This document shows positions 7,433 to 62,594 of a stretch of 64,000 nt of DNA, piece after piece (positions within the stretch are counted from its first letter, which is position 1; every line of letters starts with the position of its first letter). This stretch comes from Gammaproteobacteria bacterium (GTDB taxonomy: Bacteria; Pseudomonadota; Gammaproteobacteria; Pseudomonadales; JADFDG01). The notes under the pieces are model-generated. The model was not told where the DNA came from and ran no database searches. It was given only the letters and a program-made list of their open reading frames with translations. The translations under genes and the position numbers were made by a program. The stretch covers positions 124,001 through 188,000 of the forward strand of contig JADFDG010000005.1 of the NCBI GenBank assembly GCA_018262975.1, in the 5' to 3' direction.

Positions 7433-7501
7433 GTAGAGAGGGGGCCATGCCCCCGAGCTTTTGCTTTAATCGACAAATCGGGGGCATGGCCCCCTCTCTA
7501 C
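7433..7501. repeat. REP inverted pair
   Basis: Units 7433-7456 (+) and 7477-7501 (-), consensus sequence, separated by a 20-nt spacer. The unit is preceded by GCTCTTC, an extension shared by many copies. Confidence 0.95.
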
Positions 7502-7615: not shown

Positions 7616-8464
7616 ATGACCCTCTTCCGCCACCGCGCCGACATCCCGGCCGCGCTGTTCGTGCTTGGCGTGTTCGCCCTGCAGCTCACCGTGTTCTTCG
7701 CCGTGGACAACCCCTGGCACGCGGCCGGCTACGTGGCCCTGCTGATGCTGGCCCAGGTGTCCTGCGGGGCCATCTGCCACAACCACCACCACGTGAACAT
7801 CTTCACCCGCCGCCCGCTCAACCGGCTGCTGGAGGTGGTGATGTACCTGCAGACCGGCACCAGCCCCTACTCCTGGACCATCCACCACAACATCGGCCAC
7901 CACCACGAATACCTGCACCCGGACACGGACCCGTCGGCCTGGCAGCACAAGGACGGTCGCAGGATGCACCGCCTCTATTACGATTTCGTGCAGGCCGCGC
8001 GCATCTACCCCGAGATCTGGCGGATCGGCCGCCATTACCCGGTGCTGTTCACCCGCTTCAAGCGCATGTTCGTGCTCAGCAACCTGGTGCTGCTGGCCTT
8101 CGTGGCGCTGGACCCGCTGATGGCGCTGATCGTGTTCGTGGTGCCCATGCTGCTGATGCTGGTGCTGCTGCTGGACAACACCTACCTGCAGCACTCCGGC
8201 CTGGCGCTGGACAACCACCTGGTGGCCTCGCGCAGCGTGGAGAACCGCCTGTACAACCTCACCAGCTGGAACCTGGGCTACCACGCCGCCCACCACATGC
8301 GCCCGGGCATCCACTGGACCGAACTGCCGGCCCTGCACGCGCAGATCCGCCCGCAGATCCCGCCGCACCTGATCACCACCAGCGTGATGGGCCTGCCCAG
8401 CGAAGCCGAAAAGGCCCTCCTCCGCGCCCAGGCCACCGCCGACGGCGCCGCCCGCTCCTCGTAG
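7616..8464 (+). CDS. membrane fatty acid desaturase
   Basis: A 282-residue membrane protein with the histidine boxes of the acyl-lipid desaturase superfamily: HNHHH (about residue 55), HHNIGHHHEY (about 90-99) and GYHAAHHMRPGIHWTELPALH (about 220). These bind the di-iron centre that inserts a double bond into fatty acyl chains. Hydrophobic segments lie at about residues 12-50 and 160-190. It stands alone on the plus strand between repeats and has no visible redox partner. The stop TAG (8462-8464) belongs to a REP element. The acyl substrate and regiochemistry cannot be read from sequence. Confidence 0.88.
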   Translation: MTLFRHRADIPAALFVLGVFALQLTVFFAVDNPWHAAGYVALLMLAQVSCGAICHNHHHVNIFTRRPLNRLLEVVMYLQTGTSPYSWTIHHNIGHHHEYLHPDTDPSAWQHKDGRRMHRLYYDFVQAARIYPEIWRIGRHYPVLFTRFKRMFVLSNLVLLAFVALDPLMALIVFVVPMLLMLVLLLDNTYLQHSGLALDNHLVASRSVENRLYNLTSWNLGYHAAHHMRPGIHWTELPALHAQIRPQIPPHLITTSVMGLPSEAEKALLRAQATADGAARSS

Positions 8465-8611
8465 AGAGGGGGCCATGCCCCCGATTGCTCTTCGCCCTTC
8501 GCTCTTCGTAGAGAGGGGGCCATGCCCCCGATCTTTTCGCGTTGATGGGATAATCGGGGGCATGGCCCCCTCTCTACAGAAGAGCTATCGGAGGCACGGC
8601 CCCCTCTCTAC
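8461..8611. repeat. REP cluster (four units)
   Basis: Units 8461-8484 (+), 8508-8531 (+), 8553-8577 (-) and a decayed 8587-8611 (-) with GGAGGCACGGCC in the stem. The first supplies the desaturase stop codon. Confidence 0.93.
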
Positions 8612-8876: not shown

Positions 8877-8937
8877 ATCGGGGGCATGGCCCCCTCGCTA
8901 CATCCTGCTCTTCGTAGAGAGGGGGCCATGCCCCCGA
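8877..8937. repeat. REP pair, tail-to-tail
   Basis: Units 8877-8901 (-) and 8914-8937 (+). The GTAG ends face each other across a 12-nt gap, the reverse of the usual pair arrangement. Confidence 0.9.
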
Positions 8938-9066: not shown

Positions 9067-9360
9067 ATGATCAGTTCGTTCAGGCACAAGGGGCTGGAAG
9101 AGTTCTACCGCACCGGTAGCACCCGCGGCATCAAGGCACAGCACGCGCCCAGACTGAGAATCCTGCTCACCGTGCTTGAAGCCGCACGAGCCCCCTCCGA
9201 CATTTCACCGCCGGGCGCCCGTTCGCCGGCATTCGGGCTCCATCCATTGAAAGGCGCGCGTCAAGACGAATGGGCAATGACAGTGCAGGCAAACTGGCGC
9301 CTGACCTTTCGCTTTACACCCAACGGCACCGGGTCGCTGGACTATGAGGACTACCACTGA
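9067..9360 (+). CDS. higB: HigB-type toxin (RelE-fold mRNA interferase)
   Basis: A 97-residue protein of the HigB/plasmid-maintenance-system-killer family. The pattern begins ISSFRHKGLEEFYRTGSTRGI and ends WAMTVQANWRLTFRFTPNGTGSLDYEDYH, with the conserved NWRLTF strand and the acidic D-Y-x-D-Y-H tail. HigB cleaves mRNA at the translating ribosome. It precedes its antitoxin, the toxin-first order usual for hig modules. The start ATG follows directly on a palindrome that would be the autoregulatory operator. Confidence 0.93.
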   Translation: MISSFRHKGLEEFYRTGSTRGIKAQHAPRLRILLTVLEAARAPSDISPPGARSPAFGLHPLKGARQDEWAMTVQANWRLTFRFTPNGTGSLDYEDYH

Positions 9361-9392
9361 TCGGCGCTGCCACTCGCAGCAAGGTGACCACC

Positions 9393-9716
9393 ATGAATGC
9401 GCGCGCGCCCGATAAGGGCATGTTCAACCCCGCCCACCCCGGCGAAGTACTGCGGGACGGGTACCTTCACGCCCTCGGCCTGACCCAGGCCAAGGCGGCC
9501 GAGTTGCTCGGTGTGTCGCGCAAGACCGTCTCCGAACTGGTCAATGCACGCGCACCCGTCACCGCCGAGATGGCGATGCGAATTTCGCTCGTGTTCGGCA
9601 CCGACCCGGCCTTCTGGCTGCGCATGCAGGCCACCCGCGACGCCTGGGAGGTCCAGCAACGCGCCAAGGAAATCCGCAAGACCGTAACCCCCTACACCCG
9701 CCATTGCTCCTCGTAG
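9393..9716 (+). CDS. higA: HigA-type antitoxin (XRE helix-turn-helix)
   Basis: A 107-residue protein. It begins MNARAPDKGMFNPAHPGEVLRDGYL and has an XRE helix-turn-helix (LTQAKAAELLGVSRKTVSELVN), both diagnostic of the VapI/HigA family. It neutralises HigB and represses the operon. ATG 9393 is preferred because AAGGTG lies 7 nt upstream; a GTG at 9384 is the alternative. The gap to higB is 32 bp. The stop TAG (9714-9716) is taken from the adjoining REP element, so the residues just before it may have been changed by the insertion. Confidence 0.93.
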   Translation: MNARAPDKGMFNPAHPGEVLRDGYLHALGLTQAKAAELLGVSRKTVSELVNARAPVTAEMAMRISLVFGTDPAFWLRMQATRDAWEVQQRAKEIRKTVTPYTRHCSS

Positions 9717-9813
9717 AGAGGGGGCCATGCCCCCGAGTCGCTCTTCGTAGCGAGGGGGCCATGCCCCCGATTTGCTAAGATCAATCGCATCGGGGGCATG
9801 GCCCCCTCTCTAC
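9713..9813. repeat. REP cluster (three units)
   Basis: Units 9713-9736 (+), 9747-9770 (+) and 9789-9813 (-). The first supplies the higA stop codon; the last ends 18 bp before the yajQ start. Confidence 0.95.
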
Positions 9814-9831
9814 ATGATGGGGACCCGCGGC

Positions 9832-10314
9832 ATGCCGTCGTTCGACACCGTTTCCGAGATCAACATGCACGAAGTCACCAACGCCATCGACCAGGCGGTG
9901 CGTGAAATCGAGCAGCGTTTCGACCTGCGCGGCACCGGTGCCGAGGTGCGCCTGGAAAAGACCGTGATCCACCTCGTGGCCACCGCCGACTTCCAGCTCA
10001 AGCAGGTGCGCGAGATCGTCGAGGCCAAGCTGATCAAGCGCGGCATCGACATCACCTGCCTCGAGGAAGGCAAGGTGGAAGGCGCCGGCAAGGAACTGCG
10101 CCAGACGCTCACCGTGAAGGAAGGCATCGACCAGGAGCACGCCAAGAAGATCGTCGCGCTGGTGAAGGAAGCGAAGATGAAGGTTCAGGCCTCCATCCAG
10201 GGCGACAAGGTCCGCATCACCGGCAAGCAGCGCGACGACCTTCAGGAAGCCATCGCCCTCATCAAGAACGGCAAGATCGGCATCCCCCTGCAGTTCAACA
10301 ACTTCCGCGACTGA
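9832..10314 (+). CDS. yajQ: YajQ-family nucleotide-binding protein
   Basis: A 160-residue protein, the normal YajQ length. It begins MPSFDTVSEINMHEVTNAID and contains the two repeated ferredoxin-like halves; FDLRGTGAEV, GKELRQTL and the C-terminal RDDLQEAIALIKNGKIGIPLQFNNFRD are characteristic. Family members bind nucleotides and, in Xanthomonas, an XC_3703-type member is a cyclic-di-GMP effector acting with a LysR-type regulator. ATG 9832 matches the family N-terminus; two in-frame ATGs at 9814/9817 would add MMGTRG. A REP element occupies the position where a promoter or leader would be expected. Confidence 0.92.
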   Translation: MPSFDTVSEINMHEVTNAIDQAVREIEQRFDLRGTGAEVRLEKTVIHLVATADFQLKQVREIVEAKLIKRGIDITCLEEGKVEGAGKELRQTLTVKEGIDQEHAKKIVALVKEAKMKVQASIQGDKVRITGKQRDDLQEAIALIKNGKIGIPLQFNNFRD

Positions 10315-10340: not shown

Positions 10341-10409
10341 GTAGAGAGGGGGCCATGCCCCCGATTTTTTGAAAGGCAAAGAGCATCGGGGGCATGGCCC
10401 CCTCCCTAC
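10341..10409. repeat. REP pair upstream of RAYT
   Basis: Units 10341-10364 (+) and 10385-10409 (-, ends CCTCCCTAC). The 20-nt spacer (GAAAGGCAAAGAGC core) is approximately the reverse complement of the spacer of the pair on the other side of the RAYT gene. Confidence 0.95.
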
Positions 10410-10467
10410 AGAACGTGGCGGCGATGTCTGCTTAAGGGCGGACGGCCCGCGCTGCATGCTCTGCGCC

Positions 10468-10935
10468 ATGAGACAGCAGAGTCATCTTCGCCTCGGTCGC
10501 CACAGTGCGTCCGGCCAGCAATACCTCATCACCGCCGTCACCCACCAACGTCGCCCGTTCATGGCCGACTTCGCCATCGCCCGCCAGGTGATCGAGGCCA
10601 TGCGTCACGCCGATGCACGCGGTGACGCTTGCACGTTCGCCTTCGTGGTCATGCCCGACCACATTCACTGGCTGGTGTCGCTGGAGAATGCACAAAGCCT
10701 TGCCGTGCTGGTGGGCACCATGAAGTCGCGCGCCGCGCGACTGGTCAACGCACACTGCGCGCCCGCGCATCGCTTCGTCTGGCAACCGGGCTTTCATGAC
10801 CGCGCGCTGCGCCGCCACGAAAATGCGCATGCCATCGCGGATTACATCGTTGCCAACCCGCTACGCGCGGGGCTTGCCGCGGAAATCGGCGACTACCCCC
10901 ACTGGGACATCTGCCCCGGCGATGCTTCCCTGTAG
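10468..10935 (+). CDS. REP-associated tyrosine transposase (RAYT, Y1/HUH family)
   Basis: A 155-residue protein of the Y1 transposase (IS200-related) superfamily. It has the RAYT order: a GRHSASGQQYLITAVTHQRRPF start, then the HUH-type motif VVMPDHIHWLVSL (about residues 68-80) that holds the metal, and FHDRALRRHENAHAIADYIVANPLRAGL, whose Tyr in DYIVANP is the likely catalytic nucleophile. RAYTs nick single-stranded REP hairpins next to the GTAG tetranucleotide. This gene is bracketed by two REP pairs in mirror orientation and its own stop TAG (10933-10935) is part of one. ATG 10468 is preferred; an in-frame ATG at 10456 is possible. Neither has a good Shine-Dalgarno sequence. All key residues are present, so it may be active. 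Confidence 0.93.
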   Translation: MRQQSHLRLGRHSASGQQYLITAVTHQRRPFMADFAIARQVIEAMRHADARGDACTFAFVVMPDHIHWLVSLENAQSLAVLVGTMKSRAARLVNAHCAPAHRFVWQPGFHDRALRRHENAHAIADYIVANPLRAGLAAEIGDYPHWDICPGDASL

Positions 10936-11000
10936 AGAGGGGGCCATGCCCCCGACGCTCTTCGCCTTTCAACAAATCGGGGGCATGGCCCCCTCTCTAC
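10932..11000. repeat. REP pair downstream of RAYT
   Basis: Units 10932-10955 (+) and 10976-11000 (-). The spacer core GCTCTTCGCCTTTC mirrors that of the upstream pair at 10341-10409, so the transposase gene lies between inverted copies of the same composite. Confidence 0.95.
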
Positions 11001-11066: not shown

Positions 11067-11330
11067 ATGAACGATCTCGCATCCGTCGCCGAAGCCCTGC
11101 GCCTTCTCCGCCGCGAGGCAGGCCTCAGCCAAGCGGAGCTGGCCAGCCGCGCCGGCGTGGCGCGCGTCACCGTGGCCCGGATGGAAGCGGCCAGCCAGGG
11201 GGACATGAGCGTCTCGGCCCTGCTGCGCCTGCTCACCGCTCTGGACCAGGAGTTGCTGGTCCGGCCAGCCGGCCATCGCCGCACGCTCGATGACATCCTC
11301 GCCGAGCAACGCCAGGGTGGCCGCTCGTGA
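11067..11330 (+). CDS. hipB: HipB-type antitoxin (XRE helix-turn-helix)
   Basis: An 87-residue DNA-binding protein. The XRE helix-turn-helix spans about residues 10-45 (LRLLRREAGLSQAELASRAG, then VARVTVARMEAA), followed by SALLRLLTALDQELLV, the usual HipB dimerisation strand. It would bind and inhibit the HipA kinase and repress transcription at the palindromes immediately upstream. Its TGA overlaps the GTG start of hipA by 4 bp (GTGA), indicating translational coupling. It sits directly after a REP pair. Confidence 0.88.
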   Translation: MNDLASVAEALRLLRREAGLSQAELASRAGVARVTVARMEAASQGDMSVSALLRLLTALDQELLVRPAGHRRTLDDILAEQRQGGRS

Positions 11331-12661
11331 GGCTGGAGGTACGCGTCAACGGACGCAAGGTCGCCTCGCTGTTCCGGGAGGCAGAAGACTACGTTCTGCT
11401 CTACGACCGGGATGCCGCGGAAAGCGACTTCGTGTCATTGACCATGCCGGTGCGTGCGCGCCCGTGGATATGGCCACGCGCGCTGCACCCGTTCTTTCGC
11501 CAGAACCTGCCCGAGGGCTACCTGCTGGGCATCCTTCGCGAATCATTCGGGCGCTACCTCGACGGCACCGACCTGTCGCTGCTCGCGCTCGTCGGCGGCT
11601 CGGGCATCGGTCGCGTCACCGTAGTACCGGAGGGCAAACCGGATGCAGGTCCCGTAACCGCCTTCGACCTGCAACGCGTGCTGCACGGCGACAACAGCGC
11701 AGCCGCTTTCGAAGCGCTGGTGCGCGAACACGCACTGAATGCGGTGTCCGGCGTATACCCGAAGTTCCTCGCGCCGCCAGACCACACGCCAATCGTCAGC
11801 GGCCGCGTGACGTTGCGCACCGGGCGTTACCTGGTGAAGGGATCGGGGGAACGCACCCCGTTCCTGGCCATGAACGAACACTATTCACTCGCCGTGTTGC
11901 GGCGCACCGGCGCGCTGCCGGTGGTGGATTCACGGTTGTCCGACGATGGCCGCGTGCTGGCGGTGACCCGCTTCGATGTGGATGGGCATGGTCATCCGCA
12001 CCGCGGCCTGGAAGACGCCTGCAACCTGCTGGGCCGTCCCCCCGAGGAAAAATACGCACCCACCACCGAAGAAGCGCTGCGGGCACTTCGCACCTACCTG
12101 GCGCCCGGCACGGCTGTGCGCGACCTGGAACGACTGGGCTGGCTGATCCTGTCCAGTTACGTGATCCGCAACGCCGACCAGCACAGCAAGAATCTCGCGC
12201 TCTGCTACACGTGCGCGGACGACGTCGAACTGGCACCTGCCTATGCCGTGGTGACGACGCAGGCTTACCCGGAATTTGCGCGGAATATTCCCGGGCTCAG
12301 CATCGAAGGCCGCAAGTCGTGGGTGGCCGGAAAGTCGCTGCAGCGACTGTTCAATGTGCGGCTGGGCATTTCGCCCTCTCGCTTCCGGGAAATGACTGAA
12401 TGCCTGTGCGAGGCCGCTACGGAAACCGGCCGCGAACTGCTGCCGATGGCCCGCGAGTACCCCGAGCGGGCCGACGTGATTCGCAACATGCTGCATGCCT
12501 GGAACGACGGGATGGAAAGCATTCGCAGCGCGAAGCCGGCGCCTGCGCAAAGGGCGCTGCAGCCGGACCTGGATGCCGCCGGACTTGGCCACCGCGACAG
12601 GCCGGCGGGCAACACCGTGGTCGGAAAATCACCCCTGATCGGCAAGAAGCGCCCCTTCTGA
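11327..12661 (+). CDS. hipA: HipA-family Ser/Thr kinase toxin, atypical metal site
   Basis: A 444-residue HipA-family protein. The N-terminal couple-HipA domain (VNGRKVASLFREAEDYVLLYD, then LHPFFRQNLPEGYLL) and the kinase core are recognisable: SGVYPKFLAP, GRYLVKGSGERTPFLAMNEHYSL, and the catalytic loop IRNADQHSKNLAL. HipA enzymes phosphorylate glutamyl-tRNA synthetase or related targets, causing growth arrest. One feature is odd: the motif that normally reads AP-x-YD-[VI]-x-S, whose Asp binds magnesium, reads LAPAYAVVTT, with Ala (codon GCC) at that Asp. The kinase may therefore be weakened or inactive. The C-terminus carries about 50 extra residues rich in Pro/Arg. GTG start overlaps hipB. 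Confidence 0.87.
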   Translation: MRLEVRVNGRKVASLFREAEDYVLLYDRDAAESDFVSLTMPVRARPWIWPRALHPFFRQNLPEGYLLGILRESFGRYLDGTDLSLLALVGGSGIGRVTVVPEGKPDAGPVTAFDLQRVLHGDNSAAAFEALVREHALNAVSGVYPKFLAPPDHTPIVSGRVTLRTGRYLVKGSGERTPFLAMNEHYSLAVLRRTGALPVVDSRLSDDGRVLAVTRFDVDGHGHPHRGLEDACNLLGRPPEEKYAPTTEEALRALRTYLAPGTAVRDLERLGWLILSSYVIRNADQHSKNLALCYTCADDVELAPAYAVVTTQAYPEFARNIPGLSIEGRKSWVAGKSLQRLFNVRLGISPSRFREMTECLCEAATETGRELLPMAREYPERADVIRNMLHAWNDGMESIRSAKPAPAQRALQPDLDAAGLGHRDRPAGNTVVGKSPLIGKKRPF

Positions 12662-12676
12662 CCACCCCAAAAAAAT

Positions 12677-12744
12677 GTAGAGAGGGGGCCATGCCCCCGA
12701 GCTTTTCGCTTTTCAACAAATCGGGGGCATGGCCCCCTCTCTAC
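12677..12744. repeat. REP inverted pair
   Basis: Units 12677-12700 (+) and 12720-12744 (-), between the 3' ends of hipA and slyX. Spacer GCTTTTCGCTTTTCAACAA resembles that of the RAYT-downstream pair. Confidence 0.95.
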
Positions 12745-14097: not shown

Positions 14098-14148
14098 GTA
14101 GAGAGGGGGCCATGCCCCCGATATGTAGCGAGGGGGCCATGCCCCCGA
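14098..14148. repeat. REP direct pair
   Basis: Units 14098-14121 and 14125-14148, both plus orientation, 27 bp apart. This spacing matches that of the array inside tatB. Confidence 0.95.
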
Positions 14149-18434: not shown

Positions 18435-18459
18435 ATCGGGGGCATGGCCCCCTCTCTAC
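18435..18459. repeat. single REP unit at the hemE 3' end
   Basis: Consensus unit in minus orientation, starting at the last base of the terminator's T-tract and ending inside hemE; its GTAG contains the hemE stop codon. Confidence 0.95.
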
Positions 18460-19541: not shown

Positions 19542-19716
19542 ATCGGGGGCATGGCCCCCTCTCTGCGGGATTGTACCCTGTAGAGAGGGGGCCATGCCCC
19601 CGAGCATTTTCATGTAGAGAGGGGACCATGCCCCCGACAGCTCTTCTGTAGCGAGGGGGCCATGCCCCCGATACGTTGAAAGAGCAAAAGCGTCGGGGGC
19701 ATGGCCCCCTCTCTAC
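19542..19716. repeat. REP cluster (five units)
   Basis: Units 19542-19566 (-, GCAG instead of GTAG), 19580-19603 (+), 19614-19637 (+, one stem mismatch, GGGGACC), 19648-19671 (+) and 19692-19716 (-). It fills nearly the whole gap between hemE and gltD. Confidence 0.95.
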
Positions 19717-25806: not shown

Positions 25807-25878
25807 GTAGAGAGGGGGCCATGCCCCCGATTGTTTTTGGCGGGCGTAGAGCAATCGGGGGCATGGCCCCCTCTCTAC
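25807..25878. repeat. REP inverted pair
   Basis: Units 25807-25830 (+) and 25854-25878 (-), 23-nt spacer, between gltB upstream sequence and the damX 3' end. Confidence 0.95.
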
Positions 25879-28375: not shown

Positions 28376-28437
28376 GTAGGGAGGGGGCCGTGCCCCCGAC
28401 CGGGAAAAAGCAATCGGGGGCATGGCCCCCTCTCTAC
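28376..28437. repeat. REP pair inside the aroK-aroB operon
   Basis: Units 28376-28399 (+, GTAGGGAG and a T for C in the loop) and 28413-28437 (-). The second supplies the aroK stop codon. The pair fills most of the 82-bp gap between aroK and aroB. Confidence 0.95.
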
Positions 28438-42045: not shown

Positions 42046-42156
42046 GCAGAGAGGGGGCCATGCCCCCGATGCCCTGTCCTGGCCCCATTGAATCGGGGGC
42101 GGGGCGACCTCACATAGAGGGAGCCGGGGGTGTCGGGGGCATGGCCTCCTCTCTAC
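42046..42156. repeat. REP cluster, partly decayed
   Basis: Unit 42046-42069 (+, GCAG instead of GTAG), a decayed minus unit at about 42092-42118 (stem GGGGGC lost its partner) and 42132-42156 (-, one T in the stem). It separates the SPOR gene from hslV. Confidence 0.85.
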
Positions 42157-42700: not shown

Positions 42701-44046
42701 GCGACATGACTCCCCGCGAGATCGTCAGCGAACTCGACCGCTACATCGTGGGCCAGCATGCCGCCAAGCGTGCCGTGGCCGTTGCCCTGCGCAACCGCTG
42801 GCGCCGCCTGCAACTGCCGGAGGCGCTGCGCCACGATATCGTGCCGAAGAACATCCTCATGATCGGCCCCACCGGCGTGGGCAAGACGGAGATCGCCCGC
42901 CGGCTGGCGCGGCTGGCCAATGCGCCGTTCATCAAGGTGGAAGCCACCAAGTTCACCGAGGTGGGCTACGTGGGCCGCGACGTGGAAACCATCGTGCGCG
43001 ACCTGGTGGAAACGGCGATGAAGATGCAGCGCCAGGAGGCCATGGCGGCCTCGCGCGTGAAGGCCGAGGAAGCCGCCGAGGAGCGCCTGCTGGACGCCCT
43101 GCTGCGCCCCGCACGCGACGACTTCGCGAACGCGCCGCAACAGCCGGCGCCCGGCGACAACGTCACGCGCAACCTGTTCCGCCGCAAGCTGCGCGCCGGC
43201 GAACTGGATGACCGCGAGATCGAGATCGACGTGGCACAGACCCAAGTGGGCGTGAACATCATGGCGCCGCCGGGGCTGGAGGAAATGACCAGCCAGCTGC
43301 AGAGCATGTTCGCCAACATGGGCCGCGACCGCCGCAAGACGCAGCGCATCAAGGTGAAGGAGGCACTGAAGCTGGTGCGCGAGGAAGAAGCCGCCAAGCT
43401 GGTGAATGACGAGGAGATCAAGGATGCCGCGCTGCGCGCCGTGGAACAGGGCGGCATCGTGTTCATCGACGAGATCGACAAGGTATGCCGGCGCGGCGAA
43501 ACCAGCGGCGCCGACGTGTCGCGTGAAGGCGTGCAGCGCGACCTGCTGCCGCTGATCGAGGGCAGCACGGTGAACACCAAGTACGGCCCGGTGAAGACCG
43601 ACCACGTGCTGTTCATCTGCTCGGGCGCTTTCCACCTGGCCAAGCCGTCGGACCTGATCCCGGAACTTCAGGGCCGCCTGCCGATCCGCGTCGAGCTGGA
43701 GGCGCTGAGCGCGCAGGACTTCGAGCGCATCCTCAAGGAACCGACCAACTCGCTCACCACGCAGTACCGCGAGCTGCTCGGCACCGAGGGTCTCAAGGTG
43801 GAATTCGGCGACGACGCCGTGCGTCGCATTGCCGAGATTGCCTTCCAGGTGAACGAGCGCACCGAGAACATCGGGGCTCGCCGCCTGCATACGGTGATGG
43901 AGAAGTTGCTGGAGGACGTGTCGTTCGACGCGGCCGACGTGGCGCTCAAGCAGGCCGGTGCGACGCTGCAGATCGATGCGGCGCGTGTTGATCGCGTGCT
44001 CGGTGGCGTGGTGCAGGACGAGGACCTGTCGCGCTACATCCTGTAG
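42697..44046 (+). CDS. hslU: HslU unfoldase ATPase subunit
   Basis: A 449-residue AAA+ ATPase that unfolds substrates for Hsl[21 protein letters not shown] begins the family-typical N-domain; Walker A is [15 protein letters not shown], the pore motif GYVGRD, and Walker [14 protein letters not shown]. The I-domain (residues ~110-240) and C-terminal LSRYIL, which docks into HslV, are intact. The last residue Leu is directly followed by a TAG that belongs to the REP at 44043, so the functional C-terminal tail has been preserved exactly up to the insertion. Confidence 0.97.
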
Positions 44047-44116
44047 AGAGGGGGCCATGCCCCCGATTTGTCGAGCAGCGACGGCGAAGAGCGTCGGGGG
44101 CATGCCCCCTCTCTAC
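44043..44116. repeat. REP pair at the hslU 3' end
   Basis: Units 44043-44066 (+, supplying the hslU stop) and 44093-44116 (-). The second lacks one G and is therefore a perfect palindrome, GGGGGCATGCCCCC. Confidence 0.95.
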
Positions 44117-46913: not shown

Positions 46914-46938
46914 ATCGGGGGCATGGCCCCCTCTCTAC
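46914..46938. repeat. single REP unit
   Basis: Consensus unit, minus orientation, without a partner, followed by GAAGAGCG, the extension common to other copies. It lies between the Sel1 genes and purK. Confidence 0.95.
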
Positions 46939-60529: not shown

Positions 60530-60597
60530 GTAGCGAGGGGGCCATGCCCCCGACGCTCTTGCTCTTCAACGAATCGGGGGCATGGCCCCCTCTCTAC
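60530..60597. repeat. REP inverted pair
   Basis: Units 60530-60553 (+) and 60573-60597 (-), 16 bp after phoX, spacer CGCTCTTGCTCTTCAACGA. Confidence 0.95.
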
Positions 60598-61320: not shown

Positions 61321-61845
61321 ATGTTCGACATCGGCTTCGGTGAGTTGCTGGTCTGCGCGATTGTCGCGCTGCTGGTGCTCGGCCCCGAGCGGTTGCCCGG
61401 CGCGGTGCGCACGGTCGGTCGCTGGGTCGGCCGCGCGCGGCACACGGTCAACCAGTTCACCGACCAGATCGACCGCGAGATCCGCGCCGAGGAACTCAAG
61501 CGGCGGATCGAGGAAGAGATGAAGAAGGCCGGGATGAAGGAGATGACCCGCGAGGTCGACGACGTCTCCCGGCAGGTGAAGGAGGCGCTCAACGCGCCGC
61601 TGTCGATTGCCCCGCTGGTGGGCGCCGACCATCTGCGCAGCGAGGGGGCCACGCCCCCGGCAAGTAGCGAGGGGGCCATGCCCCCGGCAAGTAGCGAGGG
61701 GGCCATGCCCCCGACAGGTAGCGAGCAGGCCACACCGCCGGCTTCTGCGTCACCGGACGCGCCGGGTTCGACGCAGGAAGAGCATCGGGGGCATGGCCCC
61801 CTCTCTACAGCACCGACGACCGAAGCGAGTCGTACGCCGCAATGA
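61321..61845 (+). CDS. tatB: Sec-independent translocase subunit TatB with REP-encoded tail
   Basis: A 174-residue protein. The first ~95 residues are normal TatB: membrane helix [21 protein letters not shown], hinge [19 protein letters not shown] and an amphipathic helix through [11 protein letters not shown]. From about residue 106 the coding sequence is made of REP elements: four 27-bp units encode [27 protein letters not shown] and SEQATPPAS, and an inverted unit encodes HRGHGPLST. TatB tails are variable and dispensable, so function is probably kept. TatB receives Tat substrates with TatC. The stop overlaps tatC by 4 bp (ATGA). Confidence 0.93.
61637..61808. repeat. REP array inside tatB
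   Basis: Four plus units at 61637-61659, 61664-61686, 61691-61713 and 61718-61740 (the last decayed), exactly 27 bp apart, and one minus unit at 61784-61808. All are translated in the tatB frame without a stop because the GTAG is phased as AGT-AGC. Confidence 0.95.
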
Positions 61846-62594
61846 CCGATCCGCAACAACCCCGCGAACAAACGCTCATCGAGCACCTGCTGGAGCTGCG
61901 CGACCGCCTGCTGCGCGCGGTGGTCGTGGTGCTGGTGCTGTTCCTGGTGCTGCTGTCGTTTGCCAACGACATCTACCATGCACTGGCCAAACCGCTGCTG
62001 GACGTGATGCCGGAAGGCACGTCGATGATCGCTACCGGCGTGGCGAGCACCTTCGTGGCACCGATGAAGCTCACCGGCTGGGTGGCGTTCTTCATTGCCG
62101 TGCCTTACGTGCTGTTCCAGGTGTGGGGATTCGTGGCGCCCGGCCTCTACCAGCACGAAAAGCGCCTGGCTGCGCCGATCCTGGTGTCGAGCGTGCTGCT
62201 GTTCTACGCGGGCATGGCATTCGCGTATTTCGTGGTGTTCCCGCTGGTATTCGCCTTCTTCACCGCCACCGCGCCGGAAGGCGTGCAGGTGATGACCGAC
62301 ATCGACGCCTACCTGTCCTTCGTGCTGGTGCTGTTCCTGGCCTTCGGTATTGCGTTCGAGACGCCGGTCGCCGTGGTGCTGCTGGTGACCATGGGCATCG
62401 TCAACACGCAGACACTGGCCAATGCACGCCCGTACGTGATCGTGGCGGCGTTCGTGATCGGCATGCTGCTCACGCCACCGGACATCCTCTCGCAGTTCCT
62501 CATGGCGATCCCGATGTGGATGCTGTTCGAGGTCGGCCTGCTAGTCGGGCGGCTGATCGAGAAGCGGCGCGGCACAGGCAGCGGGACGACCTGA
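61842..62594 (+). CDS. tatC: Sec-independent translocase subunit TatC
   Basis: A 250-residue, six-helix membrane protein. [21 protein letters not shown] includes the conserved E and LR at the first helix, and [35 protein letters not shown] and ITPPDILSQ-like [16 protein letters not shown] match the family. TatC recognises the twin-arginine signal. With TatA and TatB it forms an operon downstream of a Tat substrate gene (phoX). Its 3' end overlaps the convergent hydrolase gene by 54 bp. Confidence 0.97.

Follow-up and report, generated by a model that had tools for sequence, protein, structure and literature searches.

The 64-kb window (the whole stretch of 64,000 nucleotides that was analysed) carries a single-copy gene that very probably encodes a group-3-like RAYT, a domesticated IS200/IS605-type Y1 transposase, together with its cognate REP family. 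The gene and the family were observed along with inverted flanks, genome-wide copies, a REPIN arrangement, stem covariation and a local excess of copies. With one RAYT, one REP family and hundreds of near-identical copies, the genome is a clean model for the birth and spread of REPs. Apart from the local peak, which is unusually clear, it is an ordinary, well-formed REPtron of the already known RAYT-REP partnership.

The RAYT gene and its flanking repeats

Inspection of the window's ORFs placed the TnpA-REP/RAYT gene at 10468-10935 on the + strand, with an ATG at 10468, a stop at 10933-10935 and a product of 155 aa. The sequence-only reading had called this a Y1/HUH transposase gene, and the profile searches bore it out. 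NF047646, the NCBIfam equivalog for REP-associated tyrosine transposases, scored 138.6 bits against a cut-off of 80, and PF01797 (Y1_Tnp) in Pfam scored 46.3 bits. The sole solved relative at E <= 0.001 was PDB 4er8, a TnpA-REP (E 8.5e-6). The assignment is based on the ORF, these three matches and the flanking REPs. The HUH motif (H65-x-H67) and the catalytic Tyr126 were assigned by alignment, and these residues were conserved in all 14 usable relatives, after three further rows had been dropped for wrong orientation. When counted by hand in the alignment, Y126 lies opposite Y115 of 4er8, which the available part of PMC8266576 names as catalytic. The closest named relatives, among the 80 of 111 loci kept, share about 50-55% identity and belong to Pseudomonas and other gammaproteobacteria.

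The whole genome gave one match to PF01797 and, with the protein itself as query, again one; the PF01797 model also finds matches in 5 of the 14 control genomes. The RAYT is thus present as a single copy, and no rival RAYT that would match the REP better was found. An insertion sequence of the IS200/IS605 type, multicopy and self-moving, was rejected on account of the one copy and of the IS200 equivalog NF033573, which scored 35 bits, under its cut-off of 55. There was no evidence of RAYT fragments captured in REP arrays, a phenomenon described by others; 15-mers of the gene region that recur elsewhere are scattered, with at most three overlapping in any one place.

The gene lies between inverted REPs of the genome-wide family. 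The upstream REPIN (10341-10409, +) consists of two inverted REPs with a 21-base spacer, and the downstream REPIN (10932-11000, +) is an inverted copy of it, the entire elements agreeing at 65 of 69 bases. Both pairs were thus found where they had been claimed to be. Their spacers, earlier described as approximate reverse complements, are identical at 18 of 21 bases once one of them is reverse-complemented. The TAG stop of the RAYT (10933-10935) falls within the GTAG of the downstream REP. On opposite sides of the gene lie HigBA (9067-9716) and a HipBA-like pair (11067-12661), in which the HipA N-terminal domain scored above its cut-off and the HipB models below theirs. The ORF between these two pairs (9772-10314) is one that we take to be yajQ-like.

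The repeat family in the window and the genome

The 24-base unit GTAGNGAGGGGGCCATGCCCCCGA had 52 matches in the window at <=3 mismatches and none in each of 100 dinucleotide shuffles, the comparison that the earlier reading had proposed. With A fixed at position 5 and <=7 mismatches, 54 matches were obtained, of which 45 had at most one mismatch; at this threshold five shuffles together yielded 6, all with 7 mismatches. The earlier estimate of about 55 copies therefore holds, and 41 of the copies are exact. Furthermore, 38 of the 54 matches lie in 0-20 kb, in agreement with the concentration described there. A density near one per kb had also been claimed. This is close to the value for the window (0.8 per kb) but describes a local peak only, the average for exact copies in the genome being 0.12 per kb (383 in 3.306 Mb).

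The first copies in the window form an array of five REPs (+ - + + -) at 318-491, the second of which has a compensated stem, GGGCGC/GCGCCC. An array of three (+ - +) at 1211-1302 has the order, spacers and stem variant of the first three REPs of that array, and an array of five at 2412-2585 is a third copy of the composite unit. A composite array with shared order, spacers and compensated stem thus occurs three times in 2.3 kb (318-2585), keeping the gene for a MazE-type antitoxin apart from a Fic gene, and cassette exchange between these arrays is possible.

The unit matches also define REPINs at 7433-7501, 12677-12744, 25807-25878, 28376-28437 and 60530-60597, an array of four REPs (+ + - -) at 8461-8611 and two REPs in - + order at 8878-8937. 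The HigA-like ORF 9384-9716 takes its TAG stop from the first of three REPs (+ + -) at 9713-9813. Two direct REPs are present at 14098-14148 (+), single REPs at 18436-18459 (-) and 46915-46938 (-), and an array of five (- + + + -) at 19543-19716. A + - pair at 42046-42156 has a 63-base spacer, and at 44043-44116 a REP is accompanied by a second copy with a one-base loop deletion, which counts as 7 mismatches ungapped. At 61637-61808, four tandem REPs repeat every 27 bases, the fourth having diverged to 7 mismatches, and one inverted REP accompanies them. These are read in frame in the C-terminal tail of ORF 61321-61845 as SEGAMPPAS-type repeats, and have been turned into coding sequence. The ORF presumably encodes a TatB-like protein, and the next one (61842-62594) a TatC-like protein.

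The genome-wide count of the unit, likewise proposed at the outset, gave 383 exact copies (193 + 190) in 3,306,067 bases and 29 contigs, while a reversed control pattern gave 0. The 22-base core occurred 507 times at <=1 mismatch. The copies were then compared in a sample of 1,185,599 bases, about 36% of the genome, comprising the RAYT contig (C25) and 52 stretches elsewhere. It contained 264 copies at <=5 mismatches, 176 of them exact apart from position 5, where 152 copies have A and 98 have C. The GTAG head is near-invariant, with G kept at position 4 in 262 and at position 1 in 260 of the 264 copies. The pairing of the stem is conserved: its six pairs showed 15 both-sided changes against 0.71 expected from column composition, although these are confined to two pairs and come in part from near-identical arrays, and thus represent few, non-independent events. 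The other altered cells comprised 5 one-sided changes and 33 broken pairs.

Inverted pairs are the dominant arrangement. Neighbouring REPs were in '+-' order in 80 of 126 cases and in '-+' order in 12, with a median spacer of 20, and lone '+-' pairs make up 53 of 119 clusters. Moreover, the spacers of these REPINs are related. When 61 of them were scored against the spacer flanking the RAYT, the median was 14, compared with 10 for their own shuffles, and 22 of the 61 exceeded the 95th percentile of the shuffles. Four REPINs that were folded each formed one long hairpin, as expected of inverted repeats. The family therefore has the features of REPs and REPINs, namely a GTAG-type head and hairpin at high copy number, mostly in inverted pairs with related spacers.

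Searches of the genus and family returned this genome only, the sole member of either in the searched set, and presence and absence were therefore compared across the order. A RAYT-like match was found in 46 of 145 order genomes including this one, the best matches in the other 45 of 144 having 46-53% identity, while the REP unit at <=1 mismatch was found in 1 of the 145, this one. In this comparison, made across the order, the repeat was not found to be equally abundant in relatives that lack the RAYT. The order relatives whose RAYT flanks were inspected carry other REP-like units next to the gene, and a 13-mer is repeated at the gene in 29 of the 35 named RAYT loci examined, out of 80. The pattern fits one RAYT with one REP and fast turnover, RAYT and lineage being confounded.

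The proposal that the RAYT generated this family is supported, since the inverted flanks, copy number, REPINs, covariation and build-up all fit it, with the same confounding of RAYT and lineage. By analogy with studied relatives, binding, cutting, mobilisation and authorship of the copies would fall to the RAYT protein. It would bind the single-stranded GTAG-plus-hairpin unit, use Tyr126 to cut next to it, and move or copy REP pairs as non-autonomous elements. The REPINs would settle chiefly in intergenic space and at the 3' ends of genes, while the RAYT gene would stay in place, marked by its two inverted REPINs. New copies have probably gathered preferentially in the roughly 100 kb surrounding it.

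Build-up around the gene and competing explanations

Leaving aside the four REPs that flank the RAYT, 29 REPs in 10 clusters were counted at up to 10 kb from the gene. Outside its contig, 137 copies and 79 clusters in 985,796 sampled bases correspond to 2.8 copies and 1.6 clusters per 20 kb, with maxima of 14 copies and 7 clusters in 46 full 20-kb stretches. This contig is 6% of the genome yet carries 89 of the 383 exact copies. Successive 20-kb stretches along it contain 0, 1, 12, 19, 31, 2, 40, 10, 4 and 8 copies, with the RAYT at 134.5 kb. A second dense stretch, of 31 REPs in 13 clusters, is located 35-55 kb from the gene, with the trough of 2 between. A near-total lack of REPs was seen at 0-35 kb and 100-120 kb of the contig, adjoining very dense stretches. 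An age gradient was not established: exact copies made up 24 of the 29 near the RAYT and 87 of the 137 off its contig (Fisher p 0.052), and 61 of the 94 remaining ones on that contig. Additionally, similarity to the RAYT-flanking spacer did not fall with distance from the gene (14.8, 14.2, 14.1).

Build-up was also evaluated for five other RAYT-REP pairs from three genomes. Vreelandella utahensis has two RAYTs 25 kb apart, RAYT-A at 137 kb and RAYT-B at 162 kb of contig C11, with different REP families, and each family is richest near its own RAYT. For family B, 24 of 37 matches lie <=40 kb from RAYT-B, 10 of these <=1 kb. A further 6 copies are located on the A side at 92-104 kb, and a control pattern matched once. 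For family A, whose pattern is degenerate, 21 of 39 matches lie at 43-138 kb, in one 94-kb stretch ending at RAYT-A, with 3 matches <=1 kb from that gene and none at 138-283 kb. No build-up was found in P. protegens FD6, where the near stretches held 2, 0, 0 and 0 copies and the mean elsewhere was 0.94. Family B of Pseudomonas sp. KUIN-1, at 1 mismatch, was found in 0 of the 4 near stretches and reached up to 14 elsewhere. Family A of KUIN-1 (104 matches genome-wide) had 15 matches in four near stretches against 2 in 16 others at 1 mismatch. This excess was not counted as dispersed build-up, because other stretches reach 13 at 3 mismatches and the near copies are mostly one tandem array beside the RAYT. 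That array (KUIN-1 5175208-5176679, locus L194) adjoins the RAYT; in it, GTGGGAGT and GTGGGAGC REPs alternate, repeating about every 181 bases. With both V. utahensis families showing build-up and FD6 and KUIN-1 family B showing none, the phenomenon is common but not general.

The possibility was considered that the local excess is unconnected with the RAYT, the region being accessory and rich in gene exchange, with loose intergenic space in which REPs of whatever origin survive selection and are spread by recombination between arrays. The RAYT stretch contains HigBA, HipA-like, Fic and MazE-type antitoxin genes, and the second dense stretch contains Fic and HipA genes; these toxin-antitoxin and Fic genes keep a permissive region in contention. 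The threefold composite array between small accessory genes is in line with it, as is KUIN-1 family B, dense far from its RAYT and absent near it. However, ordinary genes are present in the dense stretches as well (URO-D in that of the RAYT; acyl-CoA dehydrogenase and EF-Tu-type GTPase in the second), and the V. utahensis families peak at different RAYTs within one region, for which an effect of the region alone is insufficient. A permissive region is accordingly given an appreciable, though minority, chance of accounting for the excess. The Fic and HipA genes of the second dense stretch are situated at 94-97 kb of the contig (13889-16878 of locus L006).

Alternatively, the RAYT may now be inactive and the REPs kept as functional hairpins, their copy number reflecting selection rather than mobility. 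This reading draws on the placement of the copies as determined with a crude ORF caller. REPs lie close to gene 3' ends, and 23 of them, the RAYT's own included, provide the TAG stop of the upstream called ORF. REP clusters occupy 49 tandem, 36 convergent and 16 divergent gaps. Divergent gaps thus receive 16 of the 101 intergenic clusters, fewer than their share of all gaps (118 of 506) would give. Not all copies are intergenic, since 29 of the 134 clusters fall within ORFs that the caller predicted. The available text of PMC3733652 names roles in 3'-end mRNA protection, as terminators and as gyrase sites. Against selection alone stand the intact RAYT ORF with its catalytic residues, the identity of 176 of the 264 sampled copies except at position 5, and the sharing of entire REPINs including their spacers, which indicates copying of the pair; this explanation is considered unlikely. 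It is extremely improbable that the repeat is a terminator, a CRISPR-like element or a simple GC palindrome unlinked to the transposase. The G+C-rich stem is by itself terminator-like, but the GTAG head hardly varies, the unit as defined has no T run, and inverted copies with shared spacers flank the RAYT on both sides.

Within the preferred reading of a RAYT with its cognate family, it may tentatively be proposed that a RAYT acts by preference in the vicinity of its own gene, and not just in the period after its arrival, each RAYT leaving a lasting gradient of its own REP family; this is regarded as possible rather than probable. The suggestion comes from the gradient seen here despite genome-wide copies and from the two separate peaks at the V. 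utahensis RAYTs. Local copying might proceed via short-lived single-stranded REPIN intermediates, or the RAYT protein might stay near its gene. The gene-centred peak and the internal control offered by two RAYTs in V. utahensis make local RAYT action countable over many genomes.

Comparison with known RAYT-REP systems

Build-up of REPs near a rayt is already published (PMC2817692, PMC8266576, in the sections available). PMC2817692 describes REPs piled within <=200 kb of the gene in three marine gammaproteobacteria and the betaproteobacterium Thauera, and reads this as copying after gene arrival; in Thauera, more than one third of the many copies lie near the rayt (PMC2817692, PMC8266576). PMC8266576 sets the Marinomonas REPs near the rayt in contrast to the general genome-wide spread. 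A literature search on 'local hopping' of REPs returned no paper, the phenomenon being described in other words in the part of PMC2817692 available, and the available portions of PMC3686654 and PMC8049555 contain nothing on REP distance from the RAYT. Similarly, the supply of TAG stops by REPs was rejected as a new observation, since PMC3733652, in its available text, already states that GTAG REPs often give TAG stops, along with a preference for unidirectional and convergent gaps.

The accumulation around the gene thus resembles that of Marinomonas Ma and Mb, Thauera and the marine gammaproteobacterial RAYTs as portrayed in those sections, whereas here about three quarters of the exact copies (294 of 383) lie off the RAYT contig. 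The E. coli TnpA-REP (PDB 4er8) with its y and z REPs shares a homologous protein and the GTAG head; the E. coli REPs differ in their longer, bulged stems (group 2) and, in the available part of PMC12306157, are without clear clustering. As in P. fluorescens SBW25, the apparent unit is an inverted REP doublet with its spacer; the doublets there are random in extragenic space according to the part of PMC3116915 available, while here they are non-random. A close parallel in organisation is with the group 3 REPtrons of Stenotrophomonas and Pseudomonas, as outlined in the available sections of PMC2817692 and PMC8266576. These likewise have an IS200-like single-domain transposase, flanking REPs, inverted pairs and hundreds of copies, with a GTAG head (nearly) adjoining a perfect stem and a loop of 2-4 bases. 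The present system differs from them in its unit sequence, in the three bases and one variable base that separate GTAG from the stem, and in having one RAYT and one family where those often have several.
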